Assembly: GCF_028748185.1 (NCBI RefSeq) | Contig: NZ_CP118164.1 | Span: 6,225,814-6,289,813 of the forward strand | Direction of reading: 5' to 3' | DNA from: Bremerella sp. P1 | GTDB lineage: Bacteria; Planctomycetota; Planctomycetia; Pirellulales; Pirellulaceae | DNA: 64,000 nucleotides | Part shown: positions 9,850-26,831 of the stretch, piece after piece | How the letters are laid out: each line of letters starts with the position of its first letter | Position numbering within the stretch: the first letter of the stretch is position 1 | Made by a program: the position numbers and the translations under genes | The notes under the pieces: generated by a model | The model's database searches: none | What the model saw: the letters and a program-made list of their open reading frames with translations, nothing else | What the model was told of the DNA's origin: nothing

Positions 9850-10878
9850 CTAATCGCGTTTACCTTGCTCAGCCTGTTCCATTGGCTCCGAATCAGGATT
9901 TTCGTCGCCGGAAGTTTCGCCTGCTTGATAGACGCGTGCCAAGGGAACGAGAATCTCCTGGAGGTGGTGTAGATACTCCTCCTCACTGAGTTTCGATCTC
10001 TTCTGCCGCAACTCCGCCAACTGATGTTCGAGTTGATCTCGCTTTGTAACTAGTTCTGCGGAGAGCTGTAACTCTTCATCGCTAGAAACCAACACGAATT
10101 GATTAGCTAGAGTTCCGTCGGGAAGTGAACCATCTTTGGAGGCCTTGGTCACATAGATTCCCCGAAACCAATCGGCAGGCGTCCCCTTTCCGTCACCATT
10201 GTCGTCCAACAGAGCATGCTCCGTGGCCAGCTGTGAGTTGGAATCATAGTAGTTTTGCGTTTGCTTGGAGGCCGCGAGCCAGGCTTCCAGCAGTGAGGTT
10301 TGGCCGTCTTTATCTAGATCGCCAGACGTGTTGCCTATCGTCTGCGAAAGAAAGTCACCAAACCGGGCAAAATTGTATTCAAAGCCACTTTGCGTTGCGC
10401 TGATAACAACACGGTCGCGGCCTGAGAGTTGCTTGACAAATGGTCCACTCGCCGAGGCACAATTGATGATTGCCATGCGGGACGATATGGGCGCAATCAA
10501 TTCTGCTAGTTCTTCCGCACTGATATCGGGGCCGCGAAGATTGAATTTCGCCTGCTTACCGTCGAAAGTTCCATGCCCGATCAAGACAAGCCACAACGTC
10601 TGCGGAGGCGCCTTCCCCAGACTCTCGAGCGTCTCTTTGAGAAGAGGCCGATCTTTCTTTTGGGATGAACCGCCTTCATCGAGTCCGATTGTGACAAGCT
10701 GTGAAGTCGACCGTTTGGCGGCCGTTTGCCAACGATCGGCCCACTGCGTGAACAGCTCGTGGTATTTCGCTTCGCCGGGTTCACCAACAACAACGATGAT
10801 GGCGACATCCACGGAGTCGTCCGTCGACTTATCACTCGAAGGGGCAAGCAACAGGGTGCATGTCAACAGCCACAACAT
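9850..10878 (-). CDS. Legumain/caspase-like (clan CD) protein with EF-hand calcium loop and C-terminal coiled coil
   Basis: The start is set at ATG 10878, one base after the upstream stop (TGATATG), with GGAAGGGA inside that gene's end; a TTG at 10887 is an alternative. The N-terminus is hydrophobic (LWLLTCTLLLAPS), so it may be exported or anchored. A caspase-like fold is suggested by a hydrophobic strand ending in LIGHG (His102) and a second ending in IINCASASG (Cys140), the His-Gly and Cys-Ala pair of clan CD cysteine peptidases such as C13 legumains. Residues 187-198 make a textbook 12-residue EF-hand loop (DLDKDGQTSLLE), and 225-236 a second, weaker one. A predicted coiled coil and an acidic tail end the protein. 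Last gene of the MoxR operon. Peptidase activity is inferred from motifs only. Confidence 0.7.
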   Translation of the reverse strand: MLWLLTCTLLLAPSSDKSTDDSVDVAIIVVVGEPGEAKYHELFTQWADRWQTAAKRSTSQLVTIGLDEGGSSQKKDRPLLKETLESLGKAPPQTLWLVLIGHGTFDGKQAKFNLRGPDISAEELAELIAPISSRMAIINCASASGPFVKQLSGRDRVVISATQSGFEYNFARFGDFLSQTIGNTSGDLDKDGQTSLLEAWLAASKQTQNYYDSNSQLATEHALLDDNGDGKGTPADWFRGIYVTKASKDGSLPDGTLANQFVLVSSDEELQLSAELVTKRDQLEHQLAELRQKRSKLSEEEYLHHLQEILVPLARVYQAGETSGDENPDSEPMEQAEQGKRD

Positions 10879-10879
10879 A

Positions 10880-13258
10880 TCAGGCAAGTCCCTTCCAACG
10901 GCGAAGTCCCCATTCGATACTCAACAGTGAAATTGCCAGGAGGAAAACTCCCCAAGTATGCCAGACCGAACGAACCATTGGCTCCGCGATGGGAATCTCG
11001 CGATCTGGCAGCGTACTCACGAATGAATCAAGCTCATCAAGAGTGACCAGTTCCCCTCCTGATGCCCTAGCGATCGACTGTAAGAAGTCGACGTTCGGCC
11101 GTAGATTGGCAAACTCTTCAGCTGCCGGATCGGACACCCAGCCTGTTTCGACCCGGTCGATCTCGCTGCCGTCCGGATTGTTCGCAATGATCGTGGCCCG
11201 ATAGGTACCATCGGTACGTGACACGTAGCTGGAACCATACTGCCCAGAAACGGCATCCTTGGGTTCTGCTTTCAGCTTGAGCACTTCATCCGTCGGTGTC
11301 GATATTTCGATAGCCACCCCGGCATTATCCAGCGGTTGATAACTTTCATCGTTGACCTGCACGGCGACTTGAAGAGGCTGCGCCGGATCTTTTTTCGTCG
11401 TGATCGTCTGAACGCGGACTCGATGCGGCACATCCGCAATCAGCCAACGAATGGTCTGCCGCCAAGTCCGCTCGAAGTCCTCGTTGTCGTGCGATGAGGG
11501 GTGCAGCTTCCACCGCCAGAGGTCTCCGACCAGGAAGGCTGCCGTCCTTCCTTTACCAAAACGCTGCGTGACCAGCCCGGGGCGACTCTCGCCGCTTGCT
11601 GAGACAATCGATAGGAGCTCGCTCGCACCTGGCTTGAGTGCTCCCACTTCGTTGAGGATCCGCAGACCAGGCATGGCGTCGAGACGCTGCTGTTCTTGTT
11701 GCTGCGTTGTGCGAACACGAACCCAGGGCTCCAGAAGTCCATCCCGCGTTAAGGCGAGCGAGAACGCCATGGCTCCTGGTCGTGGTGAAACACCGTTCAA
11801 ATAGACCGGCAAGACCTCGCCAACTGGGGTGCGTAGGTAGTCACCTTCGACGAACGACTCACCACCACCAAGCATCAACAAGCCGCCCCCTCGCAGACTG
11901 ACAAACTCTTGAATCAGTGACTTTTGCTGCTGGGTAAAGAAGTCTGCTTCCAGGTCATCCAAGATGATCGCGTGGTAAGAGAACAGTTCGTCGGCAGACT
12001 TGGGGAATCCTCCGGAGAGTTCTCCTGGTTCGAGCTTGCCGACACGAAGCAAGACCGGCTCATCATATTGTTCGACCTGCTCTTTAGCCTCATCGTCGGT
12101 ATTGGTAAAAATTCGGTTGGCGTTTGAATCCTTTTCGCGAAACTGGAATCGAGGTTCTTTTCTTGCAATGCGAATAAGTCCGTGAAGTTCTACCTCATCG
12201 TCTTCAGCCAACGAACGATTGAGGAACTTGAACTCCCAGTTGGGACGACCCGAGACGTAGAGCACTTTGTACGGACCGTGACCTCGGTTCACCATCACGG
12301 TCCGGCTGTTATTCAGTAGTGTTGCCTCGGTGCTGGTGCTCGGATGCTCAAAGACGCCCTTCTGAGACTGGGCGTAAGCGCGAACCTGATAAAACAGGAC
12401 ACCACGCTTGTCAGGCTTGATCTGAAACCGAGTTGTGTACGACTGTCCGTCGCTGACGTTCGTAAGCGTTTGTGTTTCCAGGATCTCGCCTTGTTCGTCA
12501 AGCAGTTCGACGATGACCGAGTCGTTGGCGAACCCCGCCGCGGCAATATCGGCGGTCACGGTAACTGGCGAAGCTTCAAAGTTAGTTTGGCTGGCCGCGA
12601 CTCGCCGTACTTGCACATCCTTGGCAGGCTCGTTCGCCCCAATCTGAACCGGGAAAACTGGAGGATATTTGCTCCAGTCGACGGCGTCATTGGTAATGTC
12701 GGTGGCGTTGCCGTCGGTTAGTAGCAGCACCCCGGCGATAGGACGACCTGAGAAGCGATCAGCGATTGAAGCCAAAGCAGACTGTAGGGCCGATCCACGT
12801 CCGTCGGCGTCATAATGTTCAAAATCAGCCACAGGCAAAAGCTGATCGGCGAATTCGTAACGGCGAACGTCAAAATCCTGTCCTAAACGAATCTGCCAAT
12901 CCTCGGACCGATCGAGGCGTTTTTTCAACTGTTCGGCACGTGTTTCGGTTTCGCCTGGGTCGGTAACTTGTAGGCTTTGCGAGCGATCTGCGAGCACCAC
13001 GAAAAGATTCGCTCCGGGAACGGGCTTTGTTTCGCTACGCATCGGCTCAACCAACAGTGCGGCCAATAGCATCACCGCTAAGGTCTTCGCTGCGGCGCAG
13101 GCGAGCTTGACAATCAGCGGCGCTTGGATCGAGCGATATGCCCACAGAATAAGAAGGAATAGTCCCGCACCAATCGCGCACGCTGGAACTATCCAGTCAT
13201 GCGCACCCCAGACGTTTGGCCACTCGAGAAGCCATTGATCCTGAACCCATTCGTTCAT
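10880..13258 (-). CDS. VWA / glutamine-amidotransferase-like membrane protein of the MoxR operon
   Basis: 792 residues. The N-terminus has two hydrophobic segments (around 25-40 and 50-70), followed by a VWA-like region with a DRSQS metal-site motif (DxSxS) after LFVVLA. The middle holds a domain resembling the class I amidotransferase-like fold seen in BatB/YfbK-type planctomycete proteins (HAIILDDLEADFF, then SLRGGGLLMLGGGESF). The C-terminal part is beta-rich, and a last membrane helix sits around SVWHTWGVFLLAISLLSIEW. The bulk is therefore probably periplasmic. Start and stop overlap neighbours: ATGA with the DUF4175-like gene upstream, and a one-base gap to the clan CD gene downstream. 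It is likely a substrate or partner of the MoxR/DUF58 machinery; function unknown. Confidence 0.8.
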   Translation of the reverse strand: MNEWVQDQWLLEWPNVWGAHDWIVPACAIGAGLFLLILWAYRSIQAPLIVKLACAAAKTLAVMLLAALLVEPMRSETKPVPGANLFVVLADRSQSLQVTDPGETETRAEQLKKRLDRSEDWQIRLGQDFDVRRYEFADQLLPVADFEHYDADGRGSALQSALASIADRFSGRPIAGVLLLTDGNATDITNDAVDWSKYPPVFPVQIGANEPAKDVQVRRVAASQTNFEASPVTVTADIAAAGFANDSVIVELLDEQGEILETQTLTNVSDGQSYTTRFQIKPDKRGVLFYQVRAYAQSQKGVFEHPSTSTEATLLNNSRTVMVNRGHGPYKVLYVSGRPNWEFKFLNRSLAEDDEVELHGLIRIARKEPRFQFREKDSNANRIFTNTDDEAKEQVEQYDEPVLLRVGKLEPGELSGGFPKSADELFSYHAIILDDLEADFFTQQQKSLIQEFVSLRGGGLLMLGGGESFVEGDYLRTPVGEVLPVYLNGVSPRPGAMAFSLALTRDGLLEPWVRVRTTQQQEQQRLDAMPGLRILNEVGALKPGASELLSIVSASGESRPGLVTQRFGKGRTAAFLVGDLWRWKLHPSSHDNEDFERTWRQTIRWLIADVPHRVRVQTITTKKDPAQPLQVAVQVNDESYQPLDNAGVAIEISTPTDEVLKLKAEPKDAVSGQYGSSYVSRTDGTYRATIIANNPDGSEIDRVETGWVSDPAAEEFANLRPNVDFLQSIARASGGELVTLDELDSFVSTLPDREIPIAEPMVRSVWHTWGVFLLAISLLSIEWGLRRWKGLA

Positions 13259-16200
13259 TCACTGCTCCCCAGACGCTCGTAATACCGGCGCACAGCATCT
13301 TCGTATTGAGCCGGAACCGGGTCCTTGTCGAGCGGAACGCGGGCTTCCTCGGAGGTTCGCCGGAGAAGTTCCTCGGCGACACGATTTTGCAGCTGAGCCA
13401 ACGGGCGTGCAACTCTTTGCTGGATGATATCCCACTGCGGCGGCGCGGATGTTTCAATCTGCTCGCGGCGTAGCTCGCGGGCCTCGTCTCGAATACGGGC
13501 AGCTTCCGCGCGCAGCTCTGGATCGTTCACTATTTCTTCCACGTCACGAAGCCGGTCCGACCAGTCCACAAAGTCATCGCCAGAGAATGGGGACGTATTT
13601 CGATTGCCCCCACCACCCAGGAACCTATCCAACGCTCCGCTACCTGCCTGACTGCCTGGGCTACTTTGTTGTTGACCAGGTTGTTGACCAGGTTGTTGTT
13701 GACCAGGTTGTTGTTGACCCGGTTGTTGCTGACCCGGTTGTTGCTGACCCGGTTGTTGCTGACCCGGTTGTTGCTGACCCGGTTGTTGCTGTCCCGGTTG
13801 TTGCTGTCCCGGTTGTTGCTGTCCCGGTTGTTGCTGTCCCGGTTGTTGCTGTCCCGGTTGTTGCTGTCCCGGTTGTTGCTGTCCCGGTTGTTGCTGTCCC
13901 GGTTGTTGCTGTCCCGGTTGTTGCTGTCCGTTGCGAGCTAGTTCGCCTTCCAAATCTTCGTTGAGCTGTTCTAGCTCGTCCAGTGCGCGGCGTAGCATCT
14001 CTGTTTCATCGCCAAGTACCTGGTCGGCGGCCTGCTCAATTCCTTCGGCAAGTTGCTCGATGCCCTCGCGGGCTTGCTGTTCGCGTCGGGCTGCTTGATC
14101 GACAAATCCGCGATCGAGCAACATTTCAGTTTCCTTTAGGGCATCATTCGGCTTCGAGGTTCTCGTTTCCCGAATCGATTCATACAGCTTTTCAGCCAGC
14201 AGAGGTTGGGACTGCTCAGCTTGTTCCACCGTGTCCCTCATTCGCTGCAGCAATTGATCGAGCCGCTCTTGTTGCTCTGCGATTTGGCCACCGAGTTCCT
14301 CTTGATCGTTGGATTCACGAAGAGAATTGGTTTGCTCCGGTTTCTCGTCTAGCAGGTCTTCCAGTTGCCGCGCAAGCTCTTCTTCTGCCTCGACCAGGTC
14401 TTGGGCCTGGTTCTTCATGTCGCGAAGCTCTTCTTCGAACTCGCGCGACGTTTTTCGTTGGAATTCTTCTCGTAACTCGTTCAGTTCCCGCTGAGCACGC
14501 GTCCCTTCGTTGGCTGCCTGAGTGACCATTTGCTGCTCAATCGCTTCACTAGAACGTTGAATGTTCTCACGAGCTTGCTCTAACTGTTGCCGCTGCTCGG
14601 CCATGCGTTCCTGATTTTCAGGCTGCTCCATCCGCTGTTGCAGTTCTTCGGTATCACGGAGGATTTGTTCCTGTTCCTCTCGCAATCGCTTGAGCTGCTG
14701 TTGGGCTTCGGCACGCTGCTCGTCATTTTCCGCAGCTTCCAGAGCTGCTTGCAGTTCCTGGATTCGCTCGTTGAGGTCTTCCTGCCGTTGAGCGAGTTCT
14801 CGTAGACGATTGAGAATCTGCCGATCTTCGCGGGCTTGTTGCTGTTGCTCGGTCTGCGCCTGTTGCTCCTGGGCGTAACGGTTCTCGTCCTCTTGAAGCT
14901 GTAGCTGCTGCAATTGCTGCTGCGCTCGGCTGTTTTGCGATTGTTGAGACTGGCCCGACTGCTGCGATTGGCTCGATTGAATCACCTCATGCTCGCGAGC
15001 ACGCAAACGAAGCAGGCCTTGATAGGCGGCTTGCTCTGCCTGGAGGGCCTCTGACATCTTGGCCGGGGAAGACTCTTCGACCGCCGAGCTTAGAGCTTCG
15101 ACCGCTCTTTCCATGGAATTACGGACCTGAGCGGCGTGCTCGATAGAAGTGACGTCTTGAAGATTGCCCTGCAATTCCTCGAGCTGCACCATGGCTGACT
15201 CTTGCGATTCGATCAAGAGTTGGGTGTCGCTGTCAAACTGGTCGGTAGGCTGGTTATGCGTTTCCCGGCGTATAATTTTCCAGGTTGCACTGATGATCTG
15301 TTTTTGCAATTCGGCAAGTTTCTGAGCCTGCTCCGCATTTTGGCCACCTTGCTGTTGTTGGTGCTGCTGAGAGCCCTGGGGAGGCTGCTCTCCTTGTCGG
15401 AAAATCTGCTCGAAGGGACGCACTTCAGCGAAGAACATGTCACTCATTGTTCGCCTTAGCTGACCATCGGGACCAATGTCTTCAGCCCAGAAATACCAAG
15501 ACAGGAGCTGGTCAGGCTGGGCGTCAAGCGACTCGAACGCCAACAGATGCCCCAGTTCTACCCGCTCTTTACTGGGGAAAGAGTCTCCTAAGGAGACATC
15601 CTGATCGACCTTGCCAGGAATTGAATAGTTGATCCCGACGCGTTTCAGTCCAAAGTCATCCCACGCGGACGCGGCCAGATCGACTTCCTCGATCGGGGAG
15701 ACCTCGATGTCCTTCGTCGGTGTCGCCAGCTTAATATCGGGCGGCAGATTTGCGATCATGGTGATCTGTAGCTTTGGAGGATGCTGATTCACGCGCTGAT
15801 CGTCATCGGTAAGGTGAAGCGTCAGTTCGCGGGATCGATCCACAACGAATGTCGTGCTGTACGTCAGTGGGTCACTCGCTTCTGGCTGAAGCGAAAGAGC
15901 TTCATCGCCGGAATCCTTCTGTTCAATGAATTCGGCCGTTGCCAAGGGCTTGTTGACGCGGCACAAAAGCGTCAGTTTCGTACCTTCCACGGCTGACACG
16001 CGGCGAACATCAGGAACGAACTTATCTTCGTGGCCCGTATAGCTAGGAAATACCAGACGGGCATCCGTTTGGAGCAGCAGAGGGTACTCGAATACCTCGA
16101 CCTGAAAATCTCGCGTCTTCTGTCCTTCAAATTCAACGTGATACGACAGCGCCTGCGATACGACCGGGATCCGACTACCAAATAGGGGATCGTCGAGTGA

Positions 16201-16917
16201 ACGAGACATCGGTAGTGCGTGTTCGTTGCCATCTTCGGACGTGTAGACCAGCGTCGCTTCGGACGGCAAGGTCTGGAGGAACTTCGCCAACACCAGCAAG
16301 CCCGAGCCACGCTCGACTTCCGTATCACCGGGCTCGACCTCTACTTCGAAGACCGTTTCCGCAGCGACTGCGTCTGGCGAATCTGAGCCGACCGGTGCCC
16401 CCGACGCAAGGAGATCACGATTGAGCTGACCCAAAGCAATCGCCGCGAGCAGCGTGGCCACAAGCCCAACGCATGCTGTTAGCCGAGCCCCATACAACTG
16501 GCCTTGAGTGACAACATTTTGCCAGTTGTGGCTACGGCCATGACGGATTGCCTGACCAACAACCTCGCTCTGCAAATATCCAAAACGCCCAGTAATGCCA
16601 TCCGGCTGCTGCTCGACGGCAGTTAATAGAGCCGAGTCGAGTTGGGGATATCGTGATTCCACAAGATTGGCGACTTGATGCACATTTCGGGCCGAACGGC
16701 TACTGCCCCAGGTGACAAGCAGCGAGCCAATCACGCCGATCGTCGCGGCAACAATGAGGGTTCCGTCAAGGATGTTTCCCGTTACCTGACTAATGGCATA
16801 AACAACGCCGATAAAGATCGCAGCTAATACCCAGACGATGCCCATCCCGCTCCAAAAACGGAACGTTCTCAAGCGGTGGGCAACGCGGTCTAACTGGCTA
16901 GTGAGTTCGCGATCCAT
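13255..16917 (-). CDS. DUF4175-like membrane protein with long coiled coil and (QPGQQ)n repeat
   Basis: 1220 residues. Two membrane helices lie within the first ~70 residues and a third around 145-165. An Ig-like/beta-rich extracytoplasmic region follows (to ~500), and then a very long Gln/Glu/Arg-rich coiled coil (about 520-1000). Next comes a low-complexity tract made of 16 perfect QPGQQ units, then a short globular C-terminus. Domain order matches the DUF4175 proteins that accompany MoxR, DUF58 and BatA-type genes in planctomycetes and proteobacteria. It overlaps BatA-like by one base (TAATG) and the downstream VWA gene by four (ATGA), so translation is coupled. Probably an inner-membrane protein with a large, elongated periplasmic arm; function unknown. 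Confidence 0.82.
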   Translation of the reverse strand: MDRELTSQLDRVAHRLRTFRFWSGMGIVWVLAAIFIGVVYAISQVTGNILDGTLIVAATIGVIGSLLVTWGSSRSARNVHQVANLVESRYPQLDSALLTAVEQQPDGITGRFGYLQSEVVGQAIRHGRSHNWQNVVTQGQLYGARLTACVGLVATLLAAIALGQLNRDLLASGAPVGSDSPDAVAAETVFEVEVEPGDTEVERGSGLLVLAKFLQTLPSEATLVYTSEDGNEHALPMSRSLDDPLFGSRIPVVSQALSYHVEFEGQKTRDFQVEVFEYPLLLQTDARLVFPSYTGHEDKFVPDVRRVSAVEGTKLTLLCRVNKPLATAEFIEQKDSGDEALSLQPEASDPLTYSTTFVVDRSRELTLHLTDDDQRVNQHPPKLQITMIANLPPDIKLATPTKDIEVSPIEEVDLAASAWDDFGLKRVGINYSIPGKVDQDVSLGDSFPSKERVELGHLLAFESLDAQPDQLLSWYFWAEDIGPDGQLRRTMSDMFFAEVRPFEQIFRQGEQPPQGSQQHQQQQGGQNAEQAQKLAELQKQIISATWKIIRRETHNQPTDQFDSDTQLLIESQESAMVQLEELQGNLQDVTSIEHAAQVRNSMERAVEALSSAVEESSPAKMSEALQAEQAAYQGLLRLRAREHEVIQSSQSQQSGQSQQSQNSRAQQQLQQLQLQEDENRYAQEQQAQTEQQQQAREDRQILNRLRELAQRQEDLNERIQELQAALEAAENDEQRAEAQQQLKRLREEQEQILRDTEELQQRMEQPENQERMAEQRQQLEQARENIQRSSEAIEQQMVTQAANEGTRAQRELNELREEFQRKTSREFEEELRDMKNQAQDLVEAEEELARQLEDLLDEKPEQTNSLRESNDQEELGGQIAEQQERLDQLLQRMRDTVEQAEQSQPLLAEKLYESIRETRTSKPNDALKETEMLLDRGFVDQAARREQQAREGIEQLAEGIEQAADQVLGDETEMLRRALDELEQLNEDLEGELARNGQQQPGQQQPGQQQPGQQQPGQQQPGQQQPGQQQPGQQQPGQQQPGQQQPGQQQPGQQQPGQQQPGQQQPGQQQPGQQQPGQQPGQQQSSPGSQAGSGALDRFLGGGGNRNTSPFSGDDFVDWSDRLRDVEEIVNDPELRAEAARIRDEARELRREQIETSAPPQWDIIQQRVARPLAQLQNRVAEELLRRTSEEARVPLDKDPVPAQYEDAVRRYYERLGSSE
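13681..13920. repeat. Tandem 15-bp repeat, 16 units, encoding QPGQQ
   Basis: Sixteen uninterrupted 15-base units on the minus coding strand, plus a 12-base partial unit at 13669-13680. On the + strand, units 8-16 read TTGCTGTCCCGGTTG without change, units 4-7 read TTGCTGACCCGGTTG, and units 1-3 have TTGTTGACC(A/C)GGTTG. The clustered variants indicate block expansion by slippage or unequal crossover. Length is a multiple of 15, so copy changes keep the reading frame. The opposite strand is also open in this tract (VVADP/VVAVP repeats), a by-product of the repeat. Confidence 0.97.
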
Positions 16918-19031
16918 TATTGTGCTTCTCCCAATTCCTGTGTGGGAACTTGCGATCTGCGGGCAGCGAGAAACGTTTCAACCGCCAGCAGAAACAGCAC
17001 CGAGACAACCAGCCACTTCCATACCTTTTGATGGTTCTCCAGCTCACGATCTTGAAGCTGGCGAAGTTCCGCTAGTTGTTCGGAATGTGTGGCAGTCATC
17101 CCCAGCGGGACACCGAACTGTTCGAGCCGATCTAATTCCAGCGGGGCTGTATCGCTTTCTCCATCGGCCAGATTGACCGCGAAGGGAAGTTCCTTGCCGC
17201 CTTGCCGCAGGACGTAAATGCCTGGCTGGGTCGTCTCGTCAAAGGTGGTGGCGCCATCAGGTAATTGTAAAGTGTTTCCGCCTGGGGTTTGAATAGATTT
17301 CTCGCCCGTTGACGGCGGTAGGGGGACGCTCTGATTCACAAAATACGATTGCGAGGCCAGCTTTTGACGGTCGGCCAGTTCCAGCCAACGTGATAGGAGT
17401 GGAAGGAATTTGGTTGATAAAGCGAGTTGGCTGTCTGCTCGGTTCCAGCCGGCACTCATCACATATAGCAGCCCCTTGCCGCGCTCAATTGACCAGATCG
17501 CAGGGGTTCCGTCTTCAAACCGGGCAATCACGTCGGAGGACGATTCGTCGCCAAGAAGTACATCTCGATGCTTCCAGAACCGGATCGTGGTGAAATCGTT
17601 GTAGCGTGCCGCCGAAAACGGAGCGAAGAGAGGATGCTGAAAATCGATCTGTCCCAGCATCGCATAAGACCCGTTAGAAGACGCAAGCTTCTCATCTTCT
17701 TGCGAGACCAAACTCAGATTATCGAGCCAGGTACTAAGATCACGTACCATATCGTCGTTTTGCAGCACCACGACCGCGTGACCACCACGCTGTAAATATC
17801 GATCCAAAACGTCTCGCTGGCCTTCGCTAGGAGTCTGGGTAACGATCACCAGTCGCGGAACGGTTCCGGCCACATCATTCCAACTGGGAACACTTTCCGC
17901 CTCGACGGTCTGCACCTCAATCTTACGACTCGGCGTCTCGTCGAATACTCGACTTAGATAGAAGAGCATGCCTTCAGGATCGTCACTCGAGTCGGCTCCG
18001 AAGTAGGCGATGGTGACTTCTTCTTGCAGAGGAGGGATTACGAAGAACGTGTTGTCAAAGTCCATCCCGCTGGAATCACCATTGAGTTGAAGACGGTCGG
18101 GACCAGGAGAGCCAGGCTCGTACGGAACGTCCAGCACGAGGCTTTCGCCAGGCGGTACATGAAAGGAGACTGGACGGGAAGCAATTTGATCGCCTCGATG
18201 CCATACGACTTCGAACTGCTCTTTAACGGAGTCGGATGTGTTTCGGACACGAACGCGAGGCGCGACGGGGCTATCCCCCGCCTCTCTGCTTTCGACCAGC
18301 CGTACACGTGCATTGGAATCGTCTTCCACAGTGATGAGACGCACATCAACGCGAACAGCCTCTGGCCACTGACTGGTCTGCAGACGATCGATTTGCGAAC
18401 CAGATTGCATGTCGCTGATCAATACAATTTGTAGTGTGGCGCTGTTCTGAGTTAGGTCGTCATCGGCTGACAATCGCTCCGCAACTCCAACTAGGGCCGC
18501 CCCCAGATTGCTGGAGGCCCAAGTCGGCGACGCTTCTGCCAGGCTCTTTCGGACCATTTCGCGACGTTGGGATCGATCAAGCTCGCTTGTTTGTTCAGCG
18601 GTGACCAGTGGAGTCAGGTTCTCATCGAAGGCATAGAGAGAGACTTCGTCGGAAGCCTCCAGGTCATCGATTGTCTGGTCTGCTTCGTCCATCGCCTGTT
18701 TCCAAACATTCGCCCGTCGCATGCTGGCACTTTGATCGATGAGGAGAGCCACGTGACGACGAGGAATATCGTCGGGCGAAAGGTTGGTTGACGTGCGAAA
18801 AAAGGGCCGCATGAAGGCAAATGCAAGCAGCAAGATAACCAACGACCGAATGAGAAGCAGCAACCATTGATCAAGCCGACTGCGGCGCGTCAGCCGTGGA
18901 GGCGAAGGCTGCAGGAACATTAGCGAACTGAATTCAAAGCTTGCCTTGGGCGTGCGACGAATTAAGTGAAAGAGAATGGGTGCGGCAATCGCCGCTGCTC
19001 CCAGCAAAAAGATACCTGATAGAACGCTCAT
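16917..19031 (-). CDS. BatA-like VWA domain membrane protein
   Basis: 704 residues. It starts with the BatA N-terminal (aerotolerance-type) domain: a membrane helix, FHLIRRTPKASFEFSSLMFL and a second helix around residues 55-75. A VWA domain follows, with MIDAS residues in LLIDQSASM (DxSxS). A large beta-rich periplasmic part comes next, and a C-terminal membrane helix near VWKWLVVSVLFLLAVETFLA. BatA-type proteins are encoded with MoxR ATPases and DUF58 proteins and are thought to act in metal-dependent assembly or envelope stress tolerance. The start overlaps the DUF58 stop by four bases (ATGA) and the stop overlaps the next start by one (TAATG). Confidence 0.88.
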   Translation of the reverse strand: MSVLSGIFLLGAAAIAAPILFHLIRRTPKASFEFSSLMFLQPSPPRLTRRSRLDQWLLLLIRSLVILLLAFAFMRPFFRTSTNLSPDDIPRRHVALLIDQSASMRRANVWKQAMDEADQTIDDLEASDEVSLYAFDENLTPLVTAEQTSELDRSQRREMVRKSLAEASPTWASSNLGAALVGVAERLSADDDLTQNSATLQIVLISDMQSGSQIDRLQTSQWPEAVRVDVRLITVEDDSNARVRLVESREAGDSPVAPRVRVRNTSDSVKEQFEVVWHRGDQIASRPVSFHVPPGESLVLDVPYEPGSPGPDRLQLNGDSSGMDFDNTFFVIPPLQEEVTIAYFGADSSDDPEGMLFYLSRVFDETPSRKIEVQTVEAESVPSWNDVAGTVPRLVIVTQTPSEGQRDVLDRYLQRGGHAVVVLQNDDMVRDLSTWLDNLSLVSQEDEKLASSNGSYAMLGQIDFQHPLFAPFSAARYNDFTTIRFWKHRDVLLGDESSSDVIARFEDGTPAIWSIERGKGLLYVMSAGWNRADSQLALSTKFLPLLSRWLELADRQKLASQSYFVNQSVPLPPSTGEKSIQTPGGNTLQLPDGATTFDETTQPGIYVLRQGGKELPFAVNLADGESDTAPLELDRLEQFGVPLGMTATHSEQLAELRQLQDRELENHQKVWKWLVVSVLFLLAVETFLAARRSQVPTQELGEAQ

Positions 19032-20017
19032 GACCGGCCCCCTGCACGCGGAGCCCGTTGCCGGACGGTCGAACGACCACGTTTCAGACGATCGGCCAGT
19101 AGGTCGAATAGGATCAATTCGAGTGGATGATCGATCGAGACCTGGTGCAGTTCGACTCCCAGATTCTGGCAGATAGTTTGAACTGCCTGGGAATGCTCAT
19201 GAAACTGGTCGAGATACTTCTGCCGAGCCTGCTCTGGATCGATGAACAAGTTCTTGCCTGTTTCAACATCGCGAAACATGGCAGGCTGATCGAACTTGAA
19301 ATCGAGCTCGCGCGGATCGAGAACACGAAGAATCACGACTTCATGTCCGCGTGCCCTGAGAAATCCTGAGTGCTTGTACAGCGAGCCGATCGGCGTGAGC
19401 AGATCGGATATAAGGATGACCAAGCCCCGTTTGACGACCGTCGCGGCAATCTGCTCGAGTGGCTTCTCGATATCGGTCGCCGAGCCAGGTTCAGAGCGTT
19501 CCAGGCTCATCATGATCTGGTGAATATGTCCAGGACGAAACCGAGCCGGGATGCGATCGGTTATCGATTCGTCGAACGTCATCAACCCTACGGCATCGCG
19601 CTGCAGGGAGAGGAAATGGGCGATCGTCGCGGCTGCGGTCTTCGCATAGTCGGCCTTGCTGTAGCCAAGCGTCCCAAAGCTCATTGAGCGACTCAGGTCG
19701 ACTAGCAAATAACAGCGAAGATTGGTCTCGTCTTCGAAGCACTTGATAAAGTAACGATCCGACCGTCCGAAAAGCTTCCAATCGAGGAAGCGGGTATCAT
19801 CGCCGGGCGAATACTGACGGTACTCGGTAAACTCAACCGAGAATCCGTGATAAGGCGATCGGTGCAAGCCGGTCAGGAATCCTTCGACAACAGCACGAGC
19901 CCTCAGTTCGAGATTCTTGATGCGCATGAGCGAACCGGGATCGATCAGCGAAGCCGTCCCCGTGGGGCGACTTGTACTGGAAGTAATGGTCGACGATCCG
20001 CGCGTCGGGCTGCTCAT
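19028..20017 (-). CDS. DUF58 domain protein (MoxR partner)
   Basis: The start is taken at ATG 20017, overlapping the MoxR stop by four bases (ATGA). A longer version reaching 20248 only adds a shadow of moxR read in another frame. 329 residues. After a Ser/Thr-rich N-terminus comes the family signature GFSVEFTEYRQYSPGDDTRF followed by LDWKLFGRSDRYFIK, then a VWA-like domain with LLVDLSRSM (DxSxS). DUF58 proteins bind the MoxR ATPase, and the pair is proposed to activate or assemble metal-binding client proteins. No membrane helix is seen, so it is cytoplasmic. Confidence 0.92.
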   Translation of the reverse strand: MSSPTRGSSTITSSTSRPTGTASLIDPGSLMRIKNLELRARAVVEGFLTGLHRSPYHGFSVEFTEYRQYSPGDDTRFLDWKLFGRSDRYFIKCFEDETNLRCYLLVDLSRSMSFGTLGYSKADYAKTAAATIAHFLSLQRDAVGLMTFDESITDRIPARFRPGHIHQIMMSLERSEPGSATDIEKPLEQIAATVVKRGLVILISDLLTPIGSLYKHSGFLRARGHEVVILRVLDPRELDFKFDQPAMFRDVETGKNLFIDPEQARQKYLDQFHEHSQAVQTICQNLGVELHQVSIDHPLELILFDLLADRLKRGRSTVRQRAPRAGGRS

Positions 20018-21030
20018 TGTGCCCCCGGTACCGGTATGGCCGCTAGTAGCTGGTCGATTACCTTTTCGACCGTGATCCCTTCTGCCTCGGCACGATAGCC
20101 GACCAGTATCCGGTGTCGCAGAGTTACATGGGCCAGGGCCTTGATGTCGTCGGCGGTGACATGCGTACGCCCCAGCAGCAACGCCCGAGCCTTCGCTCCC
20201 AGAACGAGATACTGAGCACCACGAATCCCGGCTCCCCACATTACCCATTGATTAATGAAGTCAGGCGTCGAGGGTCGACCTGGTCGTGAAGCATCGGCCA
20301 GACGAACGGCATAGCGTACCAGGTTCTCGGCGATGGGGACTTTCTTCACGACGTCATGAAAACGCAGGACATCTTCACCAGAGAACAGAGGACTGATTGG
20401 TTCCGCTTTGCGCGAGGTGGTTTGGTTCACCACGGCCACTTCGTCATCCTCGGGAAGATAGTCCATCCAGATGTTGAACATGAAACGATCTAGCTGGGCC
20501 TCGGGCAGGGGATAGGTCCCTTCCATTTCAATCGGGTTCTGCGTGGCGAGCACGAAGAAAGGTTCCTCGAGGGCATAGCGCACCCCAGCGGCGGTAACCT
20601 GATGTTCCTGCATCGCTTCCAGGAGAGCGGCCTGGGTCTTGGGTGGCGTACGGTTGATTTCGTCAGCAAGGATGACGTTGGCGAAGATCGGACCTTTGGC
20701 AAACTGAAGCTTGCGGCGGCCTTCCTCCGTCTCTTCCAAGATTTCAGTACCTGTGATGTCGGCAGGCATCAAGTCAGGCGTGAACTGGATACGGCGAAAC
20801 TCAAGATCAAAAATCTTGGAGATAGAATTGACCAGCAACGTTTTGGCCAAACCGGGCGCCCCTGTGATTAAGCAATGACCGCCTGCGAAGAGGCACAGCA
20901 ACAGTTGCTCGACAACTTCCTGCTGACCGATGACGGTCTTGGAAAGCTCGGCCAAGATTTTCTCGCGGCCAACTCGGATCTGCTGGACCGCTTGTTCTTC
21001 GAAGTCCTGGTCTTCTATGTCAATGCTCAC
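20014..21030 (-). CDS. MoxR family AAA+ ATPase
   Basis: 338 residues starting at GTG 21030. Walker A GAPGLAKT (57-64), Walker B and the following sensor region VILADEINRTPPKTQAALLE (from 119), and FVLATQNPIEMEGTYPLPEA, which is diagnostic for MoxR. The lid domain follows, with HVTLRHRILVGYRAEAEGI. MoxR proteins are hexameric chaperone-like ATPases acting on VWA proteins. Here the predicted partners are the DUF58, BatA-like and VWA/GATase-like proteins encoded directly downstream. Confidence 0.95.
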   Translation of the reverse strand: MSIDIEDQDFEEQAVQQIRVGREKILAELSKTVIGQQEVVEQLLLCLFAGGHCLITGAPGLAKTLLVNSISKIFDLEFRRIQFTPDLMPADITGTEILEETEEGRRKLQFAKGPIFANVILADEINRTPPKTQAALLEAMQEHQVTAAGVRYALEEPFFVLATQNPIEMEGTYPLPEAQLDRFMFNIWMDYLPEDDEVAVVNQTTSRKAEPISPLFSGEDVLRFHDVVKKVPIAENLVRYAVRLADASRPGRPSTPDFINQWVMWGAGIRGAQYLVLGAKARALLLGRTHVTADDIKALAHVTLRHRILVGYRAEAEGITVEKVIDQLLAAIPVPGAQ

Positions 21031-21103: not shown

Positions 21104-21934
21104 CTAATGCGTCATCGCGTAGGTAATAATATTGATGCCAAGGGGATAGGCGAAGCGTTCGGAATACTCCTTGAAGTAGGTCGGGTCGACTCCTTCCTCC
21201 TCCCAGCCGTCTCCCAGGTCGGTGTTATGGCAAATGACGACCATCATTCGCCCTTTGTCATCGAAGATGCCTTTGTAATGGGGTTCATCGGCATCCCAGC
21301 GTTCTGTTTCGCTGCCGCGCATCCATGTGCCGATACTGACAATCATGGGTTTTTCGGCCAGGTCGTACACCAAGTGAAAGATATCGTGCTCTAGCGGCAA
21401 CTCTTCTGGTTCCCGATCAGGAAAGACGAGCTTGATGTTATCGTAGAATGTTCGCCACTCTTCCTCACCCCAAAAGTCATCGACCATCAAAAACCCACCG
21501 TTTAGCAGGTAGGTGCGAAGCCCGGTGACTTCCCCGTCGGTGAGATTCATTTGTCCCGGTTCAACAATGTACAGAAACGGGTAGTCTGATAGATTTTCGT
21601 CGGTCAATTCGACAATCACGCTTTCCGGGTGAACTTCCATCGAAGTGAGTTCACGCAGGCGATGCGGTAGATTCAGGTCACTTTCGGGAAAATCGGTCCT
21701 CCATTTGTCTCGCCAGCCATAAGAGGTGTACTTCACGCGAGCAAAGCGGAACGCTTCATGCTCGAACTTCTCGTCGATCTCCCAATCGTTCTTAGCGCCA
21801 GTCATCGAGGACGAATTGCCGCTGAATCTTCCCCGCGATCGAAAGCCGTCCTGAAACTGTGCCCAGACCACGCCACCAAGAAGCGTGACCGAGAGAAAGA
21901 AGCAGAGGATTCGGACCGGTTTCGATTTCAACAT
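21104..21934 (-). CDS. DUF4159 domain protein, exported
   Basis: About 276 residues. The ATG at 21934 shares one base with the TGA of the upstream TPR gene (GTGATG), so the two are translationally coupled; a GTG at 21937 is an alternative. An N-terminal signal (VRILCFFLSVTLLGGVVWAQ) is followed by the DUF4159 domain, with FRFARVKYTSYGWRDKWRTD, a central Rossmann/GATase-like core (RTYLLNGGFLMVDDFWGEEE) and a C-terminal motif around VVICHNTDLGDGWE. The family is common in MoxR clusters of planctomycetes, and its biochemical role is not known. It lies 73 bases upstream of moxR. Confidence 0.85.
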   Translation of the reverse strand: MLKSKPVRILCFFLSVTLLGGVVWAQFQDGFRSRGRFSGNSSSMTGAKNDWEIDEKFEHEAFRFARVKYTSYGWRDKWRTDFPESDLNLPHRLRELTSMEVHPESVIVELTDENLSDYPFLYIVEPGQMNLTDGEVTGLRTYLLNGGFLMVDDFWGEEEWRTFYDNIKLVFPDREPEELPLEHDIFHLVYDLAEKPMIVSIGTWMRGSETERWDADEPHYKGIFDDKGRMMVVICHNTDLGDGWEEEGVDPTYFKEYSERFAYPLGINIITYAMTH

Positions 21935-24513
21935 CACTCGGAATCATCCTTGGTTTGGGAGGGCCGGTCAGATTCGGCCGAAGGAGCCTCGGTCAGGGTT
22001 AACAGCAAAGTGAGAGCCTTGCGATAACGGGGTGCTTCGTCTAAAGCCAAGAGAACATGTCGCAGCGCTTCCTCGTTTCGTTCTGACTCGAGCAATCGCT
22101 GGGCAAGGCGAAAATGAACATAGGCCGGATCGTAGGGATCTAGACTCGCGAGAGTTGATAATCCTTCGATCACGACTGCTCCATCGTCCAACTTTTCGCC
22201 GGCTTGGGTCAACAAGAGATAGGGCTCTTGAACGAGTGGGTTTACCGCCCGCATTCTCTTGGCATTAGTGATCACGGCCTTCCATCGGCCGGACTCGGCG
22301 TGCAATTCAGCCAAGCGCCGATATTCATCAACCGCATCAGCGCGCAGCTTCGCCAGTAGTTCTAACACCGCTAGTTCTTGTTCGGTTTCGCCTAATTCTC
22401 TCAGAATTTGGGCCTTCAACGGCAAAGGGCTACCGTCCCCGGCATAGTCGGGGGCCAGATCCAACAACTTATCAATTGGCTCCAGGGCTTCCGTATATTG
22501 TTTTTCCCGGATCAAAGCTGCGGAGTACTGCAGGAGCCCGGGGAAGCTATTAGGGTGTTCTTTCAACCACGCTTGAAGTTCAGCAACGCGTGGCGGTGGG
22601 AGGTCCTCGGCGTTGAAATCCGCATCAGGGGCAAACGCCCGAGCCCGATCCTGGATGTACTTCTTGAAGCCAGCGTCGATCGCGTCCAGGGGAGCCGCAT
22701 GCCGGGCGATCGCGTCGTTGATTTGCAATCCTCTTCCGAGCTCATCAAGGATTGACCGAAGTGCCTCGATTCCGAACTGGTCGACCAAAAATTCGACCGC
22801 GACAGCCGATTCATAATAGGCAAACATGAGATGCTTCGAACTCGGGGGGCGAAGGAACGCTCCGCTCAGCTGGCTGACCGGCGTTAGATCGTCGCCCAGA
22901 ATCATCTCTCGATAAGAGGGCGAGATCGATTGTCCCCAGGATGGATCGCGCAGGGTCTCTTCATAGACCGAGATCCCTTCGCTGAGCCAGCGAGGCATCT
23001 TGTTGTGGGTCTTGTTCAGCGTGACGACGTGGCAGAACTCGTGCCATAAGACGGCTTCCCAGTTACTAGGGTTGTCCGTTTGGGACGCTGGGGAATTCAT
23101 GGTGATCACATTGCCAAAGCAAACACCCAGAAAACCAGCTCCGCCGGGGAGTCCAAACGTCCGAATGGCAAAGTCTTGTTGCTTGGGGAAGATCTCGACA
23201 GCGATCGGTTCTTTCAGTTCGACATCATACTTCTCGCACAGAACGGCTTTGGCTTCGCGAAGGATTTCCAGCACTCGATCCCCATAGATAGCTGCTTCTT
23301 GTGCGTCCATTCGCACGATGAAGCCATCGCTTTCTAGCGTGCGAAACTTGGCCATGTGTTCCTGGAGAGTTGATAGATTGTGGGCAACAACATTATAGTT
23401 GTCCGCCTCGAAGACTTCTTCGGCCAGCCTCCAGCCTTGCTCTTCCTTGCCCAACCGTAGCAGATCGTTGGACAACTCCATTTTCGCGGGAAGATATTCA
23501 CTGTCGAAATTTAGAGCTCGACGCTGGGCTGCTTCTGCTTCGGCAAAACGGTACTTCCTGGCCAAGTGCTTGCCGATGAGATAATCGACTTCCGGATTAT
23601 CCTTCCAGTGCATCAAAGCCTTCTCGCGACATTCCTTCTCGCGGTCAGCGTCACTTGCCAGGTGCGCCAGCACGGCGCGAATCGCCCAAGCACTTGGCTG
23701 GTGGGGATTGATCTCCAGCACCTTGTTTAGCAGTTGCTCTGTTTCCTCATAGCGTTCCGCTGAAAGATGATCTTCGGCGATCATTAGCAGGCCCGGGATG
23801 TGGTTCGGGTTAATCCTCAGGGCCTGTTGGAGGTACCCTTCCGCCTTCTCTGAATCACTCGGCTCGAAGGACCGGGCCAGTCCATAGAGCACACGTGGAT
23901 TGTCCTCGTCTACTTTCAAGGCGACCTGGAAGTCTTCAGCAGCCAAGGCATAGTCGTTCTTAGAAAGCGCCAATTCCGCAGCCGCGATATAGCCATTGGG
24001 TAGACCAGGCGCCCGTTGCTGAATCGGTTTGAAAAGATCAATCCGAATGCGTTTTGGGTCGGCCCCAATCTCGAGAAAGAACTTGCCGATAACGATCGAC
24101 GTTTCCAAGTCGCGGTAGATACCACTGGTGCGTTCAAGCTGCGTTCCCAGTTCCGCCAGAACTTCTTTGGCTTGATTCGACTGGCCGTTATAGCGCCGGA
24201 CGTCACGCTCCAACCACAGCAGCCGTAAGTTCGTCGGAGACAGCTTCTTGGCGTCATTCATGGTTTGAGCCGCGTCGGCGTACCGTCCGAGAGTAAGCTC
24301 ACTCTCAGTTTTCAGCACATACCAATCGATAAACGTACGACCACCTTCGATCTCCTGGGCAGCTACCTCAATGCACTTGGCGTACTCACCGGTACGAAAC
24401 AGATCTTTGGCTTCCGATAAGGTTGCGGCGTGAACGGTGCCAAGGCAGAGAAGCAATCCCACTACGGCAAGCGCGCTCGCAAGCGAGACCGCGCGCATCG
24501 TGAGAGACATCAT
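21934..24513 (-). CDS. Exported TPR protein with HExxH metallopeptidase (peptidase MA-like) domain
   Basis: The start is set at ATG 24513 (859 residues); a TTG at 24537 and ATGs at 24510 and 24498 are alternatives. A signal peptide follows (SLASALAVVGLLLCLGTVHA). Residues ~25-400 are tetratricopeptide repeats, for example PRVLYGLARSF and EGYLQQALRINPNHIPGLL. A gluzincin-type domain has HEFCH at about 491-495 with a third ligand Glu ~17 residues later in RWLSEGISVYEE, as in peptidase MA. More TPRs form the C-terminus. It is probably periplasmic and opens the MoxR operon. A catalytic zinc site looks intact, but activity is not shown by sequence alone. Confidence 0.85.
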   Translation of the reverse strand: MMSLTMRAVSLASALAVVGLLLCLGTVHAATLSEAKDLFRTGEYAKCIEVAAQEIEGGRTFIDWYVLKTESELTLGRYADAAQTMNDAKKLSPTNLRLLWLERDVRRYNGQSNQAKEVLAELGTQLERTSGIYRDLETSIVIGKFFLEIGADPKRIRIDLFKPIQQRAPGLPNGYIAAAELALSKNDYALAAEDFQVALKVDEDNPRVLYGLARSFEPSDSEKAEGYLQQALRINPNHIPGLLMIAEDHLSAERYEETEQLLNKVLEINPHQPSAWAIRAVLAHLASDADREKECREKALMHWKDNPEVDYLIGKHLARKYRFAEAEAAQRRALNFDSEYLPAKMELSNDLLRLGKEEQGWRLAEEVFEADNYNVVAHNLSTLQEHMAKFRTLESDGFIVRMDAQEAAIYGDRVLEILREAKAVLCEKYDVELKEPIAVEIFPKQQDFAIRTFGLPGGAGFLGVCFGNVITMNSPASQTDNPSNWEAVLWHEFCHVVTLNKTHNKMPRWLSEGISVYEETLRDPSWGQSISPSYREMILGDDLTPVSQLSGAFLRPPSSKHLMFAYYESAVAVEFLVDQFGIEALRSILDELGRGLQINDAIARHAAPLDAIDAGFKKYIQDRARAFAPDADFNAEDLPPPRVAELQAWLKEHPNSFPGLLQYSAALIREKQYTEALEPIDKLLDLAPDYAGDGSPLPLKAQILRELGETEQELAVLELLAKLRADAVDEYRRLAELHAESGRWKAVITNAKRMRAVNPLVQEPYLLLTQAGEKLDDGAVVIEGLSTLASLDPYDPAYVHFRLAQRLLESERNEEALRHVLLALDEAPRYRKALTLLLTLTEAPSAESDRPSQTKDDSE

Positions 24514-24851
24514 CCAACTGCTAAGGGACGTACGCAAAGCCAGATACTCCGAACCAAGATTACGGATCGATGACGCTATTGTAGAGTTCTGGCTTCTTAG
24601 TCAACAAGAATTGCGTCCGTATTGCGGATGATCCCTTCCACTAAGGGGGAGGTAGTCTGGCAGCAACTTGACGCACTTTTCCGCGGTTGGCGACAGGATC
24701 AGACGGCAAGCAACGCAAAGGCCGATCGAAATGATCGATCCGCCGTGTACTTGTAGCGAGATGTAAAGACAGGCAAACGCGCGAGTTTAGTCGTGCCATC
24801 TACCATCGTCAGTGAAGCGGCTGACAGGCGATTGGCTTCGCTTACTTACTT
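24514..24851. other. Intergenic region upstream of the MoxR operon
   Basis: A 338-base stretch between the TPR gene start and the stop of the alcohol dehydrogenase gene, both on the minus strand. It should hold the promoter of the MoxR operon and the end of the dehydrogenase transcript. No clear hairpin with a T tract, -35/-10 pair or small gene was recognised. Confidence 0.4.
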
Positions 24852-26129: not shown

Positions 26130-26831
26130 CTACTTGGCCAGACGGGCCGTTTTTGAAGAAGGGCTGCACAATTCCGTGATTGTGTCGTCGGAAATCACAA
26201 AGTAGCGTGCCGGAGCGTACTTCACCGCTTGACCGTCAATAAAAGTCCCGAACGCGGGAAGGATGAGGATCTCGTTGGTCAGGACGAAGCAGGGTAGGGT
26301 TATCGAGTCGGTCGAAGTTCTTAAACGGTATTTCGGGTGCACATGGCCAGCAAGCAATGGTTTGGTGCTGCGTTTAGGTGGAACGTGTTGAAGCTGAAAT
26401 GGACCGCAGTCGGCGACATCACGACTATCAAGGTTCCAGGACGTCGGGAGGCAGCCGGCTTTATCGTCGTGATTGCCGACTATCAATTGAACGTGAAGGT
26501 CTCGATGCTCTTCTCGCCAACGAGCCGTCTGATCAATCACCTCTCGGCTCAGTCCACGAGCACAATGGACTAAGTCGCCCAGGATAATCAGTCGCCGACA
26601 TTCGGTCTTATCGATCAAGGACGACAATCGTCCCAGGTCGATTGCAGTCACATCGGGAACCGGGATCGAAGCTGCTCGGAACGCGGATTCTTTACCCAGG
26701 TGTAGGTCGGCGACAAGGAGTACCTCATAATCCGGCATCCAGACGGCACGTTCCCCTAGGAGCACAAGCCGTTGTTCGTGCCAGATCAGCTCGAATCCTT
26801 CCCCCATGGTGTTCTCGATGTTTCCTTCCAT
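26130..26831 (-). CDS. pdeM: Ligase-associated DNA damage response endonuclease PdeM
   Basis: Calcineurin-type metallophosphoesterase with metal motifs in order: LLVADLHLGKES (DxH), ILGDLVHCARG (GDxxH), GNHDD (GNHD) and LLAGHVHPKY (GHxH). 233 residues matches PdeM, the fourth member of the ligase-associated repair operon. The ATG at 26831 abuts the helicase TAG directly; an internal Met at residue 9 is another possible start. It probably trims or nicks DNA during end processing. Confidence 0.9.
   Translation of the reverse strand: MEGNIENTMGEGFELIWHEQRLVLLGERAVWMPDYEVLLVADLHLGKESAFRAASIPVPDVTAIDLGRLSSLIDKTECRRLIILGDLVHCARGLSREVIDQTARWREEHRDLHVQLIVGNHDDKAGCLPTSWNLDSRDVADCGPFQLQHVPPKRSTKPLLAGHVHPKYRLRTSTDSITLPCFVLTNEILILPAFGTFIDGQAVKYAPARYFVISDDTITELCSPSSKTARLAK

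Follow-up and report, generated by a model that had tools for sequence, protein, structure and literature searches.

The locus described here raises the question of whether the last gene of a MoxR-type operon in Bremerella sp. P1 (contig NZ_CP118164.1) encodes a protease under calcium control or a protein with a protease-like fold that no longer cuts. A calcium-responsive protease of legumain or caspase type, with Cys140 as its nucleophile, had been proposed from the letters of the DNA (the original prediction). Beyond a few chaperone cases, little is understood, to our knowledge, about MoxR operons with BatA and DUF58 genes. We analyzed the gene, referred to below as the pseudo-legumain gene, within a window of 64,000 nucleotides (the whole stretch of DNA that was analyzed), and considered its predicted structure, the residue at its nucleophile position, its acidic loops and its distribution.

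Gene and operon context

Read in the direction of transcription, and using Pfam matches, the operon encodes a TPR/Peptidase_MA_2 protein, a DUF4159 protein, MoxR, a DUF58 protein, a BatA/VWA protein, a DUF4175-like protein, a VWA/GATase protein and, finally, the pseudo-legumain (Table 1). The TPR/Peptidase_MA_2 gene is perhaps the first gene of the operon, its membership being judged by gene order and overlap alone. The ATG of the pseudo-legumain gene is at 10878 and the TGA of the preceding GATase-type gene occupies 10882-10880, so that 1 base lies between them. The direct adjacency to a VWA/GATase gene had been predicted correctly, and the GATase1_like assignment holds. The VWA domain of that protein, in contrast, had no Pfam match at E up to 1; this part of the label comes from the earlier naming and from a DxSxS motif seen by eye.

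Searches with the pseudo-legumain sequence gave no meaningful match in Pfam or NCBIfam, and a search of PDB sequences returned weak, unrelated matches only. A lipoprotein signal around Cys7 was inspected by eye and dropped. Five promoter-like sites were found, compared to a mean of 6.6 by chance, and they are thus not above chance. A 15-base tandem repeat (about 17 copies, 98% alike) was localized inside the DUF4175-like gene, at window positions 13680-13929, and the encoded protein shows a Gln/Pro/Gly repeat. Also present in the window, at 26130-32028 on the minus strand, are genes that by eye resemble those for a metallophosphoesterase, a large helicase, an ATP-dependent DNA ligase and a metallo-beta-lactamase-type exonuclease.

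Table 1. Features of the pseudo-legumain gene and its operon, in window coordinates
Feature	Position	Strand	Basis or remark
Pseudo-legumain gene, 342 aa	9850..10878 (including stop codon)	minus	last gene of operon
Hydrophobic N-terminal stretch (residues 1-22), probably a signal for export	10813..10878	minus	pLDDT <50 over residues 1-15
Caspase-hemoglobinase fold, residues 24-240	10159..10809	minus	AlphaFold2 model and structural match
His102, presumed clan CD catalytic-type His	10573..10575	minus	123/123 orthologues; place by motif
Cys140, nucleophile in the original prediction	10459..10461	minus	2 residues before probable catalytic-Cys position
Ser142, probably at catalytic-Cys position	10453..10455	minus	structural register, 50/50 matches
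EF-hand-like loop 1, residues 187-198, DLDKDGQTSLLE	10285..10320	minus	ligand positions
EF-hand-like loop 2, residues 225-236, DDNGDGKGTPAD	10171..10206	minus	ligand positions
C-terminal helices, residues 274-325	9904..10059	minus	secondary structure of predicted model
VWA/GATase (GATase1_like) protein, co-occurring partner	10880..13258	minus	PF07090
Long DUF4175-like protein with Gln/Pro-rich repeat	13255..16917	minus	PF13779, E 0.0015, below its cut-off
BatA/VWA protein	16917..19031	minus	PF07584, PF13519, TIGR02226
DUF58/VWA protein, start uncertain	19028..19921	minus	PF01882
MoxR AAA+ ATPase	20014..21030	minus	PF07726 (AAA_3), PF20030 (bpMoxR)
DUF4159 protein	21104..21937	minus	PF13709
TPR protein with Peptidase_MA_2 domain	21934..24537	minus	Pfam

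Predicted fold

An AlphaFold2 model based on 74 sequences has a mean pLDDT of 90.1 and a pTM of 0.87 (one relative with a long extension, L121, was excluded from the underlying alignment). Foldseek ranked caspases first, with E about 1e-6, and MALT1 and the SAVED-CHAT filament were among the first rows. Realignment of 999 chains with VIA-align placed legumains on top (4nol, Z 19.0, rmsd 2.5 A over 191 residues), with plant asparaginyl endopeptidases, metacaspases, GPI transamidase and caspases behind them. The caspase-hemoglobinase (clan CD) fold that had been predicted is thus borne out, with legumain as the best match, and we regard it as settled as far as prediction allows. The motifs IGHG, with His102, and IINCASASG, with Cys140, are also present as originally read. 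The C-terminal helices of the model comprise residues 274-292 and 299-325.

The fold of the predicted model agrees with that of the legumain family (C13). No match to the C13 family profile (PF01650) was found for the window protein, and the matches of its orthologues to this profile are weak, with an E of 0.1 or less in 7 of 49 and a best value of 0.0054. PF01650 is nevertheless the family matched by most of them, although CHAT (one of the 49) and DUF2785 (two) gave better E-values. PF00656, the C14 caspase family, likewise had no match to the window protein, and one distant relative (L170) reached 21.1 bits, just under the cut-off of 21.4.

The residue at the nucleophile position

The motif NCASASG allows two registers on the CxSG of C13-like enzymes: without a gap, the catalytic Cys is matched by Ser142, and with a gap of two residues it is matched by Cys140. 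Profile comparisons were split between these registers, two of them (probability 81 and 23) gapping Cys140 onto the catalytic Cys and one (26) placing Ser142 there. Thus, residues 20-142 were modelled alone, with the model ending at Ser142 (pLDDT 90.7; L121 and L109 were both excluded from the alignment used). Compared with solved structures, this model gave Z values of 10.4 to 11.4 and rmsd values of 2.7 to 3.1 over 109 to 118 aligned residues. In all 50 structural rows, 49 of which are caspases, the alignment ended at residue 123 of the model, which corresponds to Ser142. The partner of this residue is the catalytic Cys according to entry titles in 14 rows (caspase-1 C285A in 10, caspase-11 C254A in 3 and metacaspase 4 C139A in 1) and, according to residue numbering that we take to be the established one, in 32 rows (caspases 2, 3, 6, 7 and 8); in the remaining 4 of the 50 the partner was not placed by numbering. 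Given that this last aligned residue is paired with what we take to be the catalytic Cys in the structural rows, the model points to Ser142, not Cys140, at the nucleophile position.

In sequence alignments, the Cys of three Cys-bearing relatives (L165, L169 and L174) falls in the Ser142 column, a result that comes from one aligner and overlapping sequence sets. These alignments, which were made with the Cys-bearing relatives and with the fusion proteins described below, included every sixth of 123 orthologues, with the C-group and fusion proteins trimmed to the region that matches. The last residue of strand 4 is 139 in the full model vs. 141 in the model of residues 20-142, and the active-site loop may therefore differ in the whole protein. 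We conclude that Ser142 rather than Cys140 probably holds the catalytic-Cys position, although two of the three profile alignments disagree. In terms of C13 membership, the catalytic His is present by motif place (His102) and the nucleophile position has Ser142 instead of Cys, again with those two alignments contrary. The combination of a kept fold with a lost nucleophile is as expected for a clan CD pseudopeptidase, the same two alignments again being contrary.

Conservation among orthologues and distant relatives

We compared 123 non-redundant orthologues, counting proteins that are identical after residue 30 once. Residues His102, Gly103, Asn113, Asp118, Ser144, Arg156, Asp187, Asp189, Ser195, Glu198, Glu220, Asp226 and Asp229 are invariant in all 123. 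Cys occupies position 140 in 92 proteins, with Thr in 14, Ala in 7, Gly in 6 and Ser in 4; at position 142, 114 proteins have Ser, 8 have Ala, 1 has Pro and none has Cys. On a tree built with alignment columns 139-146 masked, the state of Cys140 requires 16 changes, and at least 4 of these changes are forced by well-supported branches. Homologues that lose both the His and the Cys had been named as evidence against a peptidase. This was observed in part: Cys140 and Ser142 are both missing in 6 of the 123 orthologues, but His102 is lost in none. Across this alignment, selection has maintained the fold, the His and the acidic loops more strictly than Cys140 or Ser142.

More diverged paralogues (group B, L051-L061, n = 11) all keep the His and have Thr at 140; position 142 is Pro in 8, Ser in 2 and Ala in 1, and never Cys. 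Since the His is retained in 11 of 11 despite Pro or Ala at the nucleophile position in 9, conservation of the His need not mean catalysis. In 8 of 11 loci, the group B gene is located near genes that resemble the VWA/GATase or MoxR gene of the window, and in one (L055) the group B, MoxR, DUF58 and BatA genes are consecutive. The distant relative L170 is encoded in a row with DUF4175-like, GATase1_like and DUF4159 genes. Four weaker verrucomicrobial matches are degenerate legumain-type domains fused to DUF3857 and/or a transglutaminase-core domain (L182:673-4333, L183:3417-6065, L184:1215-4279 and L185:2184-4727). None of the four has Cys at the nucleophile column and all have lost the acidic loops; L182 adjoins MoxR and L184 adjoins DUF4159. 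To judge from these gene orders, degenerate distant relatives adjoin MoxR, DUF58, BatA, DUF4159 or GATase1_like genes. Two remote relatives, L167 and the fusion L185, no longer have the His.

Also identified were relatives with Cys at the nucleophile column. L165 (L165:7297-8388) is a distant relative with the motif SACGSDG and both acidic loops, and is possibly an active form. L169 (L169:5014-8049) is a Cys-bearing, C13-like gene that also encodes both loops and adjoins a transglutaminase-core gene.

These patterns bear on whether the protein could be an active hydrolase with a serine nucleophile, using Ser142 and His102 and requiring the calcium loops for shape. The prevalence of Ser at 142 is consistent with such an enzyme, and the invariance of His102, Gly103 and Ser144 would fit it too, but the Ala or Pro at 142 in 9 of the 123 orthologues argues against it, as does the His retained by group B beside a Pro or Ala. 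We know of no clan CD serine peptidase, which also counts against this explanation, and we consider it unlikely. A further argument against it comes from pseudo-orthocaspases with Ser in place of Cys, which also lack the His and are described as presumably inactive in PMC6426788. A Ser142-His102 enzyme of legumain/caspase fold that is structured by two calcium loops and acts beyond the cytoplasmic membrane, as an enzymatic component of a MoxR-VWA-GATase machine, is in our judgment distinctly unlikely. If it did exist, it would be the first clan CD enzyme with a serine nucleophile that we know of.

The alternative of an active cysteine peptidase that uses Cys140, with the active-site loop shifted by two residues and activity controlled by calcium, would account for the frequent Cys at position 140 and for the two profile alignments that set this residue on the catalytic Cys. 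It is opposed by the structural register and the alignment of Cys-bearing relatives, both of which favor Ser142, and by the absence of Cys140 from 31 of the 123 orthologues together with its repeated changes on the tree. We find this alternative very improbable, and Cys140 is no longer the best candidate for the nucleophile position, where Cys does not occur in any of the 123 orthologues; the two dissenting profile alignments are evidence in its favor.

Acidic loops

The original prediction included a perfect 12-residue EF-hand loop and a second, weaker loop. The second acidic loop is present at 225-236. EF-hand ligand positions 1, 3, 5, 9 and 12 are occupied as expected in 123 of 123 orthologues for loop 1 and in 95 of 123 for loop 2. 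The strict EF-hand pattern of PROSITE type fails in the window protein and is matched by 1 of the 123 orthologues. In the predicted model, the exit helix of loop 1 comprises residues 196-213 and the helix entering this loop is short. Thus, the ligand positions of the first loop are as predicted, but to call it a perfect EF-hand overstates the case. The pattern D.[DN].[DN]...[ST]..[DE] occurs three times in the 37,861 residues of the six-frame open reading frames of the window, and two of the occurrences are in the pseudo-legumain. As the motifs are common to many of the 123 orthologues and the core pattern is scarce in the window, they reflect more than chance.

Both loops are present at matching places in the Cys-bearing relatives L165 and L169, as is loop 1 in L174, and in the C13-like L154 group a similar loop is aligned with loop 1. 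Thus, the loops were probably inherited from a peptidase ancestor, and the idea that they are a novelty of the MoxR operon is not upheld. Portions of PMC4357240 describe calcium as needed by, or present in, several clan CD peptidases (metacaspases, clostripain, gingipain and separase), which by analogy makes calcium binding plausible for the pseudo-legumain. Its loops are probably calcium-binding. A calcium-responsive protease, as originally proposed, finds no support, given that the nucleophile position lacks Cys and that the loops are shared with Cys-bearing relatives. A calcium-binding, non-proteolytic component is possible.

Distribution and association with the VWA/GATase gene

Matches were identified in 50 of 98 related genomes; 49 of these encode an orthologue and one (G002) encodes a distant paralogue only. 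When the profile of the 49 orthologues was compared with named genomes, there were at least 582 relatives, of which the best 80, mostly from planctomycete and verrucomicrobial bins, were kept. Among 149 genomes spread over the phylum, including the genome of Bremerella sp. P1 itself, 9 have matches with E <1e-100 and 18 at 0.001. One of the 18 (L180 in G160) is, by eye, a false match to a dehydrogenase-like protein. Among 145 genomes across the phylum of a verrucomicrobial locus there are matches in 6 at E 1e-5 and in 2 at <1e-100, one of the latter being the genome on which the sample was centered. These counts indicate that the gene is common in near relatives and patchy elsewhere. No second pseudo-legumain copy was found in the genome of Bremerella sp. 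P1. This genome does encode a second, distant VWA/GATase gene (G000:C1:1149103-1151421, 27% identity).

A VWA/GATase gene is directly upstream (<400 bases, same strand) in 107 of 119 loci, with a median gap of 31 bases (four loci with too little upstream DNA were excluded). The 12 exceptions include two loci where the VWA/GATase gene is 781 and 1,549 bases away (L009 and L094), one with only 362 bases of upstream sequence (L086) and four (L021, L041, L047 and L083) that adjoin sulfatase, thymidylate synthase or M56/secretin genes, the gene of L021 having been read in L067. The neighborhood is thus conserved, and the predicted link with the MoxR operon proves to be a lasting one, in planctomycetes and some verrucomicrobia.

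Using cut-offs of at least 140 bits for the pseudo-legumain and E up to 1e-80 for the VWA/GATase protein, 49 of the 98 genomes have both genes, 1 has the VWA/GATase gene only, none has the pseudo-legumain gene only and 48 have neither (Fisher p 4e-27; relatedness is ignored in this value and in the counts). In the one VWA/GATase-only genome (G089) the gene is matched incompletely, and this may be the end of the contig. The genes are apart in 7 of the 49 genomes, by 0.5 Mb on one contig in G019 and on different contigs in G020, G025, G037, G039, G040 and G063. At E 1e-20, 82 of the 98 genomes have a match of VWA/GATase type, and the pseudo-legumain gene is thus tied to the close VWA/GATase orthologue rather than to the family. 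In the verrucomicrobial sample, matches at <1e-100 for the pseudo-legumain and for the VWA/GATase protein come from the same two genomes, in which the genes are adjacent; one is again the central genome.

A ligand-binding stalk, in which only the calcium loops matter, the caspase-type scaffold is inert and the link to MoxR reflects shared expression, would explain the invariance of D187, D189, S195, E198, D226 and D229 in 123 of 123 orthologues, but we think it very improbable because His102 is equally invariant, the co-occurrence persists where the genes lie apart, and the loops are lost in all four verrucomicrobial fusions, even though one is beside MoxR and one beside DUF4159.

Proposed role

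We consider it moderately probable that the pseudo-legumain is an exported clan CD pseudopeptidase of the legumain-like branch, probably calcium-binding, that works together with the VWA/GATase protein without itself being proteolytic. A non-cutting partner is more likely than a calcium-switched protease because the protein apparently has a legumain fold without the catalytic Cys and travels with one MoxR-type operon.

A hydrophobic N-terminal stretch was detected in 108 of 123 orthologues, in a crude count that used script-chosen starts. We infer that the protein is exported via this N-terminus, after which it would fold around its acidic loops. The loops would keep the C-terminal half of the domain rigid. 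With the catalytic Cys apparently replaced (by Ser142 here, and by Ser, Ala or Pro in orthologues), the former substrate groove, including His102, may bind a peptide, a protein segment or the surface of a partner without cleavage. The most likely direct partner would be the VWA/GATase protein. The MoxR ATPase and the VWA proteins might then use the assembly to remodel or hold a client in the cell envelope, with MoxR acting on the client via VWA domains, by analogy with NorQ/NorD as described in parts of PMC9976466.

Of the 50 related genomes with a close VWA/GATase orthologue, 49 also have the pseudo-legumain, whereas all 48 others lack it, which makes it a specific and testable candidate partner for the operon. 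Our findings also suggest that in bacterial C13-like peptidases the acidic loops can persist after catalysis is lost, and that bacteria can use a caspase-type fold for a component that is not an enzyme.

Comparison with known systems

Among the matches listed in a literature search that covered few subscription papers, there was no recognizable description of the protein or the operon, and DUF4159 is mentioned in none of the papers found by one part of this search. Legumain (MEROPS C13, PF01650) is the best structural match and, like the pseudo-legumain, has its His after strand 3. The pseudo-legumain differs in that it never has Cys at 142, carries the acidic loops and lacks a PF01650 match. 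Its C-terminal part has two helices; in prolegumain, as described in portions of PMC4357240, an activation peptide and a five-helix domain occupy this place. Bacterial C13-like peptidases of related genomes (the L154 group, L169 and L174) share the acidic D.D.D loop 1, and L169 also shares loop 2, but unlike the pseudo-legumain they keep the Cys, in QCYSGG, PCHSGG or NSCYSGG.

The pseudo-orthocaspases described in PMC6426788 resemble the pseudo-legumain in having Ser for Cys in a caspase-type fold. They occur in other hosts and have Tyr in place of His, whereas the His of the pseudo-legumain is invariant, so that only the Ser part of the comparison applies. In the MoxR-vWA ternary conflict systems, domains of the caspase superfamily are likewise linked with MoxR and vWA; according to the sections of PMC7159879 that describe them, these domains occur as fusions with VMAP or vWA components, unlike the pseudo-legumain. 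The terms GATase and BatA occur 0 times in the text of PMC7159879. NorQ/NorD and RavA/ViaA likewise combine a MoxR ATPase with a VWA partner; in contrast to the operon described here, a clan CD component is unmentioned in the relevant parts of PMC9976466 and PMC10585395. As far as those portions of the sources extend, the nearest published ideas are the pseudo-orthocaspases (PMC6426788) and the MoxR-vWA ternary systems with caspase domains (PMC7159879).
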